Shown here piece after piece: positions 60,329 to 64,000 of a stretch of 64,000 nucleotides of DNA. The translations under genes and the position numbers were made by a program. Below the pieces are notes generated by a model. That model ran no database searches, was not told the DNA's origin, and was given only the letters and a program-made list of their open reading frames with translations. Each line of letters opens with the position of its first letter. Position 1 is the first letter of the stretch. Source of the stretch: an uncultured Sphingomonadaceae bacterium (GTDB taxonomy: Bacteria; Pseudomonadota; Alphaproteobacteria; Sphingomonadales; Sphingomonadaceae); assembly GCA_947501325.1 (NCBI GenBank), contig CANMVC010000002.1, positions 1,054,001-1,118,000 on the forward strand. Reading direction: 5' to 3'.

Positions 60329-60517
60329 TCACTGGGCCGCATCCGTTTCTTTGGCAACATCTTCCGGTCGCACATTGCGTTCGTCGAGCATTTCGGCTGC
60401 TTCGTCCAGAGCCTTGGCCTCACCAACCGTAACGCCACCTGGACCAGGATCGTTTTGAGCGGGACCGCAAGCTGCTAATGACAATAGACCTAAACAGATA
60501 GCAATTTGTTTCATCAT
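60329..60517 (-). CDS. Small lipoprotein
   Basis: Encodes 62 residues; GGAAGG lies about 10 bases upstream and two ATG codons are adjacent. The lipobox LAACG places the lipidated Cys at about 17. The mature part is short, acidic and helical (EAKALDEAAEMLDERNVRPEDVAKETD). No function known. Confidence 0.7.
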   Translation of the reverse strand: MMKQIAICLGLLSLAACGPAQNDPGPGGVTVGEAKALDEAAEMLDERNVRPEDVAKETDAAQ

Positions 60518-60584
60518 ATTTCGGTACCTTCCAAACCAAGTAGATTATGCAAAATTGCTTAAAGCAGAAACAATTCTTGAAGAC

Positions 60585-60614
60585 AAAAAAAGGGCCGCCA
60601 AAAAGGCAGCCCTT
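60585..60614 (-). terminator. Intrinsic terminator of the Ala-rich lipoprotein gene
   Basis: AAGGGCTGCC and GGCGGCCCTT (minus strand) form a 10-bp stem with one G-T pair and a five-T loop, followed by seven T. It lies about 20 bases after the stop at 60636. Confidence 0.9.
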
Positions 60615-60635
60615 TTCCAAATATATCAAAAAGAC

Positions 60636-60974
60636 TTATTCAACTGCACGTTTTGCAGCATCTGCGCCTTTGTCGATCATGTCATTTGCAGCGTCCTTAG
60701 CAGCATCTGCGGCAGAACCGGCAGCATCTGCAGCGGAATCAGCAGCTTCGGCTGCAGCTTCACCAGCTTCTTCGGTTGCTTCAGCAGCAGCTTCGCCCAT
60801 GGCATCTGCAGAACCTTCAGCAGCAGTCATCGCGTCATCAGCAGCTTCTTCAGCCGTTGCTTCTGTACCTTCTACAGCTTCTTCAGCACCAGCTTCTGCA
60901 TTTTCAGCAGCGCCGGAACAAGCAGCCAAGCCGAGCCCGGCTGCAAGAACGATAGATGTTGTAACTTTTTTCAT
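60636..60974 (-). CDS. Ala/Glu-rich lipoprotein with LEA-like repeats
   Basis: Encodes 112 residues. The signal ends in the lipobox LAACS (Cys about 19). Nearly all the rest is Ala, Glu and Asp in loose repeats (EAAAEATEEAG, DAAGSAADAAKDAAND), predicted to be a long amphipathic helix like Lpp or late-embryogenesis-abundant proteins. It may serve as a spacer to the cell wall or a stress protectant. It has its own terminator, so it probably is an abundant separate transcript. Confidence 0.75.
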   Translation of the reverse strand: MKKVTTSIVLAAGLGLAACSGAAENAEAGAEEAVEGTEATAEEAADDAMTAAEGSADAMGEAAAEATEEAGEAAAEAADSAADAAGSAADAAKDAANDMIDKGADAAKRAVE

Positions 60975-61167
60975 TGGGTAAACCTTTTACTTTTCCTCAA
61001 AAAACCAAGCAAACAGCTGATAAACTCCCTCAATCTGCTCGCGGTTCGGAGCTTTACCTCTGTCGAAAAAGGATAGCAATGGCGAACATTCTTACCCTAT
61101 GATCCTTTGAGACTTTTTTTTGTAACATTTTGAAAAACGAAGATTCAAAGCAAGCAAATCTAATGGA

Positions 61168-61205
61168 TTGACTGCATATAAAGAATTCTTTATATGTGCG
61201 CTGCA
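61168..61205 (+). promoter_or_regulatory. Promoter with overlapping 22-bp palindromic operator
   Basis: TTGACT (61168-61173), 17 bases, then TATATG (61191-61196) makes a good sigma70-type promoter. The perfect palindrome CATATAAAGAA/TTCTTTATATG (61175-61196) covers the spacer and -10. The predicted start of transcription (about 61203) is within a few bases of the ATG at 61206. The ArsR-type regulator encoded downstream is the obvious candidate to bind. Confidence 0.8.
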
Positions 61206-62231
61206 ATGAACGATATCCTGACCATTTTTAGAGCCTTGGCCGATCCCACGCGGATTCGAATCATGCTGCTGCTGCTCAAAATGGAGCTCGCTGTCGGCGA
61301 GCTGGCGCAAATTCTGGACCAAAGCCAACCACGCATCTCTCGCCATATCAGGATTTTGGACGAAGCGGGCCTCGCCGAGCGCCGCAAAGAGGGTAGCTGG
61401 GTTTTCCTACGCCCCGGACAGTCCGCAGCGCTGGATGTCCTGCGCCGGCTTTTCCGTTCCGACGACGTGATATCATCGGAACAAGCCATTAGTGATCAAG
61501 CGCAATTATCGCTCGTCCGAAAAGCGCGGGCCGAGATGGCGGAACGCTATTTTGAGGCACATGCAGAAGAATGGGACGCCATCCGCTCCCTTCACCTGCC
61601 GGAAGACGATGTGGAACAGGCAATGCTGGCACTGCTCAAAGATGTTAATCTAGGGCATATGCTCGACATCGGAACGGGCACCGGCCGGATGGTCGAACTT
61701 TTCGGACCAAATTCTGAAAAAGTAACGGCATTGGATAAAAGCCCCGAGATGCTGCGGCTGGCTCGGGCAAAACTATTGGGCAATGAATCAGATAAGACCG
61801 ATCAGGCGGCCTTGGCACGAAAAACCGAGTTGAAATTGGGTGATTTTAATAATTTACCTCTCAATGACAACCAAATTGACAGCGTATTACTGCATCAGGT
61901 CCTGCATTATGCCCAGCATCCCGAGGCCGTTCTAATGGAAGTATCAAGGGTTGTGCGAGAGGGCGGAACAATCATGATCACCGACTTTGCTCCGCATGAT
62001 CACGAGGAATTACGAACCGCTCATGCGCACGCCAGGCTTGGTTTTTCTGATGACAGCATGAAGCGCTGGTTCACAGCTTCACAGATAGACATGGTGCAGA
62101 GCCGGACGCTGGATGGCGGCAAGCTGACCGTCAAAATTTGGGTGGGACGCAAGTCAGGTCTATCTCAAATTCATCCCGGCAGCGACGCCGCGTCAACCTC
62201 CAATATACTCCGAAAAAGAGCTTCCCTATGA
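61206..62231 (+). CDS. ArsR-family regulator fused to a SAM-dependent methyltransferase
   Basis: Encodes 341 residues from ATG 61206; an earlier ATG (61194) lies inside the operator and -10 element and is less likely. The N-terminal winged helix (about 1-90; IFRALADPTRIRIMLLLLKMELAVGELAQILDQSQPRISRHIRIL) is ArsR-type without the metal-binding ELCVCDL motif. The C-terminal part has the SAM motif HMLDIGTGTGRMVELFG and a later VLHQVLHYAQHPEAVLMEVSRVVREGGTIMITDF. Such fusions head metF/metH operons in alphaproteobacteria and resemble SahR, which senses S-adenosylhomocysteine. Overlaps metF by four bases. Confidence 0.88.
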   Translation: MNDILTIFRALADPTRIRIMLLLLKMELAVGELAQILDQSQPRISRHIRILDEAGLAERRKEGSWVFLRPGQSAALDVLRRLFRSDDVISSEQAISDQAQLSLVRKARAEMAERYFEAHAEEWDAIRSLHLPEDDVEQAMLALLKDVNLGHMLDIGTGTGRMVELFGPNSEKVTALDKSPEMLRLARAKLLGNESDKTDQAALARKTELKLGDFNNLPLNDNQIDSVLLHQVLHYAQHPEAVLMEVSRVVREGGTIMITDFAPHDHEELRTAHAHARLGFSDDSMKRWFTASQIDMVQSRTLDGGKLTVKIWVGRKSGLSQIHPGSDAASTSNILRKRASL

Positions 62232-63184
62232 CCGAACAAACCAGACCTTTAGGCTTGAACGAACTGGAAGAGGCTAAGCGTGCGCTAGACGTTCCGTTAT
62301 TTGCCGGACTAAGCGGTGATGCGGATGTTTCCTTTGAGTTTTTCCCACCCAAGTCGGAAAAAATGGAGCAGACTTTGTGGGATAGCGTCGTAACGCTGGA
62401 ACCGCTAAATCCTCGTTTTGTGTCTGTAACCTATGGCGCTGGCGGATCAACCCGCGAGCGCACGCATGCCACGGTTGCGCGGATTGCCAAAGAAACCAAT
62501 ATCCCAGCTGCGGCGCATTTGACTTGTGTCGGTGCCAGTAAAGCGGAAATAGCGGAAGTCGCGCAATCCTATTGGGAGGCAGGCGTACGTCATATTGTCG
62601 CATTGCGTGGTGATCCTCCCTCTGAGGGGCAAGCATTTGAACCGCATCCGGAAGGTTACGAAAGTGCTGCGGAACTTGTTAAGGGTTTGAAGGATATTGC
62701 GCCTTTTGAAATCTCGGTGGCGGCCTATCCGGAAACCCATCCCGAGGCCAATTGCCCGCAGAGCGATCTCGATAATCTTAAACGCAAGCTGGATGCAGGT
62801 GCAAGCCGCGCAATTACGCAGTTTTTCTTTACCGCCGAGGCCTTTTTCAGGTTCCGGGATGCAGCGGATGCAGCCGGGATTGATGCCGAATTGGTACCGG
62901 GAATATTACCGGTATCGAACGTCGCCCAGACGCGGAAGTTTGCGGGTATGTGCGGTGCCGAGATCCCGGCGTGGATGAACGACCTGTTTGAGGGGCTGGA
63001 TGACCACCCCTCTGCACGCCAGTTGATCGCAGCAACCGTTGCCGCCGAACTGTGCCGCAAACTTTATGCCGGCGGTGTCCGACAGTTTCATTTCTACACG
63101 CTCAACCGTGCAGAATTAAGCTACGCGATCTGCCACCTGCTCGGCAAACGCCCATCCGGCGCAGCGCAGGAGAAAGCAGCATGA
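62228..63184 (+). CDS. metF: Methylenetetrahydrofolate reductase
   Basis: Encodes 318 residues from ATG 62228, coupled by ATGA to the preceding gene. VSFEFFPPKSEKMEQTLWDSV, FVSVTYGAGGSTRERT, AAHLTCVGASKAEI, HIVALRGDPP and AITQFFFTAEAFFRF are MetF signatures. It makes 5-methyl-THF for MetH with NADH and FAD. It overlaps metH by four bases. Confidence 0.96.
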   Translation: MTEQTRPLGLNELEEAKRALDVPLFAGLSGDADVSFEFFPPKSEKMEQTLWDSVVTLEPLNPRFVSVTYGAGGSTRERTHATVARIAKETNIPAAAHLTCVGASKAEIAEVAQSYWEAGVRHIVALRGDPPSEGQAFEPHPEGYESAAELVKGLKDIAPFEISVAAYPETHPEANCPQSDLDNLKRKLDAGASRAITQFFFTAEAFFRFRDAADAAGIDAELVPGILPVSNVAQTRKFAGMCGAEIPAWMNDLFEGLDDHPSARQLIAATVAAELCRKLYAGGVRQFHFYTLNRAELSYAICHLLGKRPSGAAQEKAA

Positions 63185-64000
63185 CGGGCCCCGGCGATCA
63201 GCTTCGCGCTCTGGCAGCGGAACGCGTTCTCGTTTTTGACGGCGGCTATGGCACGGCGATCCAGAATCACGGCCTTGGCGAGCGCGATTATCGCGGCACG
63301 CTGGAGCTCAGCGATGACCAGAAGGGCAATAATGACCTGCTTAGCCTGACGCGGCCCGATATTATCGAGGGCATTCACACCGCCTATCTGGAAGCGGGCG
63401 CGGATATTGTCGAAACCAATACGTTCAGTTCGACCGAAATCAGCCAGGCCGATTACGGCTGCGAGCATCTGGTCAGGGATATCAACATCAAATCCGCCGA
63501 AATCGCTCGGCGGGCCTGCGACAAGGCCGAGGCCAAAGACGGCAAGAAACGCTTTGTGGCCGGCTCCATCGGCCCGACCAACAAAACATTGTCCCTATCA
63601 CCCGACGTCAACGACCCCGGCTTTCGCGAGATTGATTTTGACTATCTCAAAGGCGTCTATCGCGAGCAATGCGATGCGCTGATCGAAGGCGGTGTCGACT
63701 TTCTGTTGATCGAGACAATCTTTGACACACTCAACGCCAAATGCGCCGGCATGGCCGCACAGGAAGCCGCCGAAGCCTGTGATCGCGATGTGCCCCTGAT
63801 GATTTCAATGACGCTGACCGACCTGTCCGGACGCAATTTATCGGGCCATACGGTCGAGGCTTTCTGGCACGCGGTACGCCATCTGAAACCGCTGACCATC
63901 GGCCTGAATTGTTCCTTTGGTGCTGATCAGCTGCGCCCGCATCTTGCGATGCTGACCAAGGAAGCTGACACGCTGATCATGGCCTATCCCAATGCTGGCC
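63181..64000 (+). CDS. metH: Methionine synthase, homocysteine-binding part (3' end outside window)
   Basis: The first 273 residues are visible. RVLVFDGGYGTAIQNHGL, NTFSSTEISQADYG, AGSIGPTNKTLS and FLLIETIFDTLNAK, and IGLNCSFGADQLRPHL (with the first zinc Cys) are marks of the homocysteine S-methyltransferase domain of cobalamin-dependent MetH. In many alphaproteobacteria this domain is a separate gene from the folate/B12 domains; the window ends too early to tell. It takes the methyl group from the MetF product. Confidence 0.93.
   Translation, partial: MTGPGDQLRALAAERVLVFDGGYGTAIQNHGLGERDYRGTLELSDDQKGNNDLLSLTRPDIIEGIHTAYLEAGADIVETNTFSSTEISQADYGCEHLVRDINIKSAEIARRACDKAEAKDGKKRFVAGSIGPTNKTLSLSPDVNDPGFREIDFDYLKGVYREQCDALIEGGVDFLLIETIFDTLNAKCAGMAAQEAAEACDRDVPLMISMTLTDLSGRNLSGHTVEAFWHAVRHLKPLTIGLNCSFGADQLRPHLAMLTKEADTLIMAYPNAG

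Follow-up and report, generated by a model that had tools for sequence, protein, structure and literature searches.

The window analysed here, a 64,000-nucleotide stretch of DNA, ends in three consecutive genes of methionine metabolism, sahR, metF and metH, preceded by a palindrome and a candidate promoter (Table 1). The gene order is conserved, with metF as the next gene in the same orientation at 78 of the 80 named loci and an ATGA at the end of sahR in 51 of 59 loci from Sphingomonadaceae, hereafter the family; metH additionally has its own Shine-Dalgarno sequence (−7.4 kcal/mol). Parasphingorhabdus marina, P. flavimaris and Sphingorhabdus sp. are among the named relatives, which show 68-96% identity, and the window probably comes from the Parasphingorhabdus/Sphingorhabdus part of the family.

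Table 1 Features of the sahR locus in the window, and operator sites in the genome.
Feature	Position	Strand	Remarks
Candidate -35 element TTGACT	61168..61173	+	sequence and conservation in relatives
Perfect 22-bp palindrome	61175..61196	.	conserved operator core 61176-61195
Putative -10 element TATATG, within operator	61191..61196	+	17-nt spacing, fits TTGNNN-17-TANNNN of Zymomonas
Predicted transcription start	61203..61203	+	3 nt 5' of ATG, 0-4 nt plausible; 6-nt discriminator as in Zymomonas
sahR, ArsR winged helix + methyltransferase-like domain, 341 aa	61206..62231	+	Pfam HTH_5 3.7e-14, Methyltransf_11 4.6e-20
metF, methylenetetrahydrofolate reductase	62228..63184	+	ATGA overlap with sahR
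metH, methionine synthase, 5' part	63181..64000	+	ATGA overlap with metF; runs off the window
sahR site	61175-61196 region of window		0 mismatches
ahcY site	C2:142981		0 mismatches
metK site	C1:1131740		1 mismatch

On the minus strand, at 60636-60974, the window also encodes a divergent small protein rich in alanine and glutamate with a lipoprotein-like N-terminus; its apolipoprotein-type match is weak and below cut-off.

A palindrome overlapping the sahR promoter

The palindrome, CATATAAAGAATTCTTTATATG at 61175-61196, consists of two 11-bp arms that are 100% complementary and have no spacer, as a sequence-only reading of this DNA had described. No other perfect 22-bp palindrome occurs in the window, where base composition predicts 0.016 (0.88 per genome of this size), and the genome holds a single copy of the 22-mer even when up to three mismatches are allowed. 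Such local rarity is not decisive alone; conservation decides.

Conservation was assessed on 30 loci of the family, each representing a different genus other than the own. All 20 core positions carried 0.9-2 bits of information and the first flanking bases 1.0 and 0.8 bits, position −1 of the core being C or G in 30/30; further out, conservation was low, the -35 region excepted. The outermost pair of the 22-mer was complementary in 16 of these 30 genera, with 15.0 expected from the column make-up, and in 21 of 41 loci from other families, with 17.7 expected. Within the own genus, the pair was complementary in 14/29 loci (6.8 expected), with a single C-G type accounting for 13 of them. The shared operator unit thus reads as 20 bp, 61176-61195, matching the published length. 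The 22-bp operator proposed earlier is a perfect palindrome in this copy, but only 20 bp form the conserved core, and outside the own genus the longer unit was rejected as unsupported, its outermost pair being near expectation.

A small inverted repeat, AATC-N5-GATT (61157-61169), overlaps the -35 element. Its conservation, as AAATCTA followed by GATTGAC, is confined to the genus, and it possibly represents the half-sites of a second regulator, or shared ancestry only.

The candidate promoter, TTGACT-17-TATATG, has the sequence and spacing first noted for it, and nine bases lie between TATATG and the ATG at 61206. A generic promoter scan of 60400-61500 returned no promoters; the scan demands a T at the end of the -10 element, a base that is not conserved in the mapped promoters of Zymomonas mobilis, a member of the same order (PMC7566282). 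The mapped starts of that species are described as having TTGNNN-17-TANNNN with a prevalent 6-nt discriminator (PMC7566282), and this geometry, applied to 61168-61206, predicts the +1 at 61203.

Relatives point to the ATG at 61206 as the start codon of sahR. A mechanical ORF call begins at an in-frame ATG inside the palindrome (61194); many relatives lack this codon or have it in another frame, and it would lie 5' of the predicted +1. It was rejected as the start. As a called start, it could be an annotation error in relatives too. At the ATG at 61206 the anti-Shine-Dalgarno energy was −1.5 kcal/mol, bearing out the earlier statement that a Shine-Dalgarno sequence is absent here. When riboswitches were looked for, neither 60400-64000 nor the three comparison loci L072, L074 and L079 gave an Rfam match at the gathering thresholds.

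The product of sahR is a cysteine-free protein, very probably of the SahR type

The HTH_5 and Methyltransf_11 domains both score above the Pfam cut-off, giving the fusion architecture of SahR. In a PDB sequence search, each of the best stretches listed is confined to one part of the protein, the winged helix or the methyltransferase domain. The classical cysteine motif of metal sensors is ELCVCDL. At the same place the present protein reads ELAVGEL, and it has no cysteine anywhere, so that the metal-sensing site of ArsR/SmtB proteins is absent from this region, as the sequence-only reading had recognised; 31 of 102 orthologues are likewise cysteine-free. The SAM-binding motif LDIGTGTGRM is conserved, with GTGTG (residues 156-160) kept at 0.99-1.0 among the 102 orthologues. 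Together with the report that operator binding by Desulfovibrio SahR depends on SAH (cited in PMC8877191), this is consistent with the SAM/SAH pocket serving as the sensor, and membership of the SahR family would make SAH the ligand.

We consider it improbable that the site belongs to another regulator, or that the downstream protein is a metal sensor or an enzyme. For the HTH part, the NCBIfam metalloregulator ArsR/SmtB subfamily model does exceed its cut-off (78.7 vs 55), and the methyltransferase motif is intact. Against these readings, the protein lacks cysteine, and the sites lie at SAM-cycle genes and are lost together with the regulator, as described below.

Probable operator sites at SAM-cycle genes in the genome and genus

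Sites were scored with the model ATATAAAG-N4-CTTTATAT (16 scored positions), the reversed consensus serving as control. At up to three mismatches the genome holds 11 sites vs 9 in the control, and at up to one mismatch three vs 0, located before sahR-metF-metH, ahcY and metK. The palindrome had been predicted at ahcY, metK and metH; it was found at the first two, and metH lies inside the sahR operon. Within the genus, all 30 fetched ahcY loci carry the site at 16/16 positions and all 30 fetched metK loci at 13-15 of 16, while the reversed consensus reaches 9-11. When 32 genomes of the genus were scanned at up to one mismatch, 76 sites were found and none in the control; the 76 sites were assigned to genes through the sahR, ahcY and metK locus sets, not individually. 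A single genus genome has more than three sites, the fourth (one mismatch) being at G024:C3:308345-308364.

A palindrome arising by chance and devoid of function would agree with the 0.88 expected per genome, but it recurs at the same place and with the same sequence in relatives across the order, and the contrast of 76 to 0 cannot be reconciled with chance; conservation across the order refutes this explanation, to which we give practically no weight.

Adenosine kinase was considered as a fourth target and rejected. At a PfkB kinase gene, whose best match by sequence among solved structures is an adenosine kinase (3ubo), a three-mismatch site (L079:1501-1520, C1:1327870-1327889) covers part of the start codon, and at least 12/16 positions match in 13 of the 30 loci from the same genus. 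However, none of eight other genera reached 13/16 (best 10), sites with up to three mismatches in the present genome are near chance (11 vs 9), and the stretch holds the gene's Shine-Dalgarno sequence. The adenosine kinase site is left as weak and lineage-specific.

SahR of Proteobacteria is described as having a 20-bp palindromic motif and the core targets sahR, ahcY, metH, metF and metK, with regulons in 7/7 Sphingomonadales genomes (PMC4239095). The system found here shares with this published regulon an ArsR-family regulator of the SAM cycle, a 20-bp palindrome that marks both its own operon and SAM-cycle genes (sahR, ahcY and metK, in the genome and in the genus), and the targets (PMC4239095); the match covers motif length, targets and clade as given in the published description. 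The palindrome is thus very probably the operator of the downstream ArsR-methyltransferase, in keeping with the published SahR family. The sequence-only reading was supported as to the operator, and the SAM/SAH sensor that it suggested is consistent with the evidence, but it had missed that SahR is already described. SamR of Xanthomonadales is also a SahR-like protein, reported to regulate methionine genes near metH (PMC4239095). Its reported motif differs, being 24 bp with ATC-10 nt-GAT, whereas the present operator contains no ATC, and of the SAM-cycle genes its regulon is reported to include only metK (PMC4239095), whereas ahcY has a site here.

Regulator and sites are lost together in some other genera

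In 38 genomes from other genera of the family, 99 sites with at most two mismatches were found in 31 genomes, compared with 10 control sites in 6. The seven genomes with no such site fall into two groups. In four (G039, G045, G048, G057) the best regulator matches are weak and ArsR-type (E 2e-6 to 1e-8), and the ahcY and metK promoters of G039 (L325, L334) lack the site. The other three (G061, G063, G069) encode SahR-like proteins, 44-47% identical, yet are siteless at this threshold; two of them have a 13-of-16 site before sahR (L064, L068). Conversely, no regulator match was obtained in G056, although this genome has sites; since one of them is at the end of a contig, its regulator gene may have been lost in assembly. 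The co-loss of regulator and sites is significant whether G056 is counted with SahR (Fisher p 0.0005) or without (0.002).

Two full-length sahR genes lack an operator of their own (L034 in G065, L058 in G063). G065 retains three sites elsewhere in the genome and G063 none; autoregulation may have been lost in both.

Spacing of operator and start codon points to a leaderless sahR message

For comparison across the order, a site was called at 13/16 positions or more and a Shine-Dalgarno sequence at −4 kcal/mol or stronger; start codons were picked automatically. A site precedes sahR in 59 of 62 family loci (reversed control 0/62) and, with the same motif at ahcY and metK, upholds the proposed operator over the promoter. 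Other families of the order have the site in 41/42 sahR loci (control 2/42). Gaps and Shine-Dalgarno sequences were counted without the loci below 13/16, namely L031, L034 and L058 in the family and L270 elsewhere; contig breaks have removed the upstream region of L031 and L270.

The gap between operator and ATG is 7-12 nt in 57 of the 59 family loci, the exceptions being 30 nt (L046) and 166 nt (L036). The median anti-Shine-Dalgarno energy at these genes is −0.4 kcal/mol, and two of the 59 (L016, L046) reach −4; L016, from the own genus, has AAGGTGG within the gap. In the other families, by comparison, the gap is 7-13 nt in 2/41 loci, where the short gaps (L256, L066) may reflect wrong starts, and the median energy is −5.3 kcal/mol, with 29/41 reaching −4 (Mann-Whitney p 1e-12, uncorrected for relatedness). 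The promoter differs as well: TTGAC lies within 12 nt before the operator in 45/59 family loci vs 0/41 others, and TTTAC precedes it in 1/59 vs 34/41. TTG occurs in the 12 nt before the site in 57/59 family loci, and TTGAC stands at the exact -35 place in 29/29 own-genus loci and 13/30 from other genera.

At metK of the own genus the gap is 40-45 nt, and all 36 metK loci reach −4 kcal/mol, with a median of −4.2 close to the threshold, so the absence of a Shine-Dalgarno sequence is not general in these genomes. The metK gene of another genus (L333) has a short gap too, of 11 nt, with an energy of −4.3. Some ahcY starts are misplaced (e.g. L328), and the Shine-Dalgarno figures of this gene were set aside.

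The near-constant spacing, the lack of a Shine-Dalgarno sequence and the promoter geometry support the likely leaderless regulator mRNA that had been suggested, with its start as a predicted one. We think it likely that sahR is essentially leaderless across most Sphingomonadaceae, with its start locked to the operator and a TTG-type -35, while other families of the order combine longer gaps with a Shine-Dalgarno sequence and TTTAC; such a start would limit the amount of repressor relative to MetF and MetH. Three loci with GTG instead of ATG at the expected start (L155, L158, L187) count against leaderless translation, since the 171 leaderless starts reported for Sinorhizobium meliloti are all AUG (PMC3616915). 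Zymomonas, for which 119 leaderless cases (leader of at most 5 nt) are reported among 2,675 TSS-gene pairs (PMC7566282), does not settle the matter for sahR, since its own sahR is exceptional, with a gap of 166 nt (L181; the same layout as L036). A published dRNA-seq data set exists for Sphingopyxis granuli TFA (PMC7713065, PMC6472365) and may already contain the sahR 5' end.

Alternatively, the operator could be that of SahR but the main message start upstream, so that the palindrome is transcribed within an ordinary sahR leader. In Zymomonas, an additional upstream promoter is reported for about half of the leaderless units (PMC7566282), and the generic scan missed the proposed promoter. Such a leader would, however, need a ribosome site, which is lacking in 57/59 family loci vs present in 29/41 others, and the distance from the -35-like TTG and the operator to the ATG hardly varies across genera. 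We regard an upstream start as rather unlikely.

A model for SahR control of the SAM cycle

Taken together, we propose, with a probability of about 0.85, that the palindrome is the operator of SahR, the first gene product of a sahR-metF-metH operon, that SAH releases SahR, and that sahR is leaderless. SahR bound to the 20-bp site would cover the promoter spacer and the -10 element, blocking RNA polymerase. Build-up of SAH would fill the methyltransferase-like pocket and cause SahR to let go, by analogy with published SahR; sahR-metF-metH, ahcY and metK would then be expressed, and SAH recycled to methionine and SAM. Transcription is predicted to begin about 0-4 nt before the ATG, giving an essentially leaderless sahR message, and metF and metH would be reached via the ATGA stop-start overlaps, metH also via its Shine-Dalgarno sequence. 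For an Ensifer aridi sahR deletion, the highest sahR expression is reported (PMC8877191).

Leaderless initiation probably limits the amount of SahR, as for acuR of Rhodobacter sphaeroides. The acuR-acuI-dddL operon likewise has a repressor gene first, an inverted-repeat operator over the promoter and no Shine-Dalgarno sequence, and its leaderless acuR is reported to be transcribed at least as efficiently as the genes behind it but translated far less (PMC3017554). The two systems differ in that the acuR transcript begins at the ATG by a measured 5' end, whereas the sahR 5' end is predicted, and in that acuR encodes a TetR-family repressor sensing acrylate, unlike the ArsR-type SahR (PMC3017554).

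SahR and its targets are already known, also in this order, and the independent comparison made here adds that a SahR-type system would control the SAM cycle in this bacterium, with the operator pinned to the base. The family-wide leaderless layout of sahR is a modest new detail. The word "leaderless" is absent from the main text of PMC4239095, and we found no report of a leaderless sahR among the papers listed in searches of the open-licence literature. That related families combine the same regulator and operator with two different designs of translation start would make the question of why regulators go leaderless testable in existing strains, and sahR, if the layout is as predicted, a natural series for studying a change of translation-initiation mode.

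The operator outside the order

The class-wide comparison was made on the best 30 loci, 28 of them outside the order. Among these 28, a site precedes sahR in 22 (control 2/28), and the gap is 5-10 nt in 5 of the 22, so short gaps are not unique to Sphingomonadaceae. Two contigs named Acidocella and one unclassified proteobacterial MAG (L167, L168, L186) encode a SahR of about 51% identity, preceded by the same operator at a gap of 11 nt; gene transfer is a possible origin.
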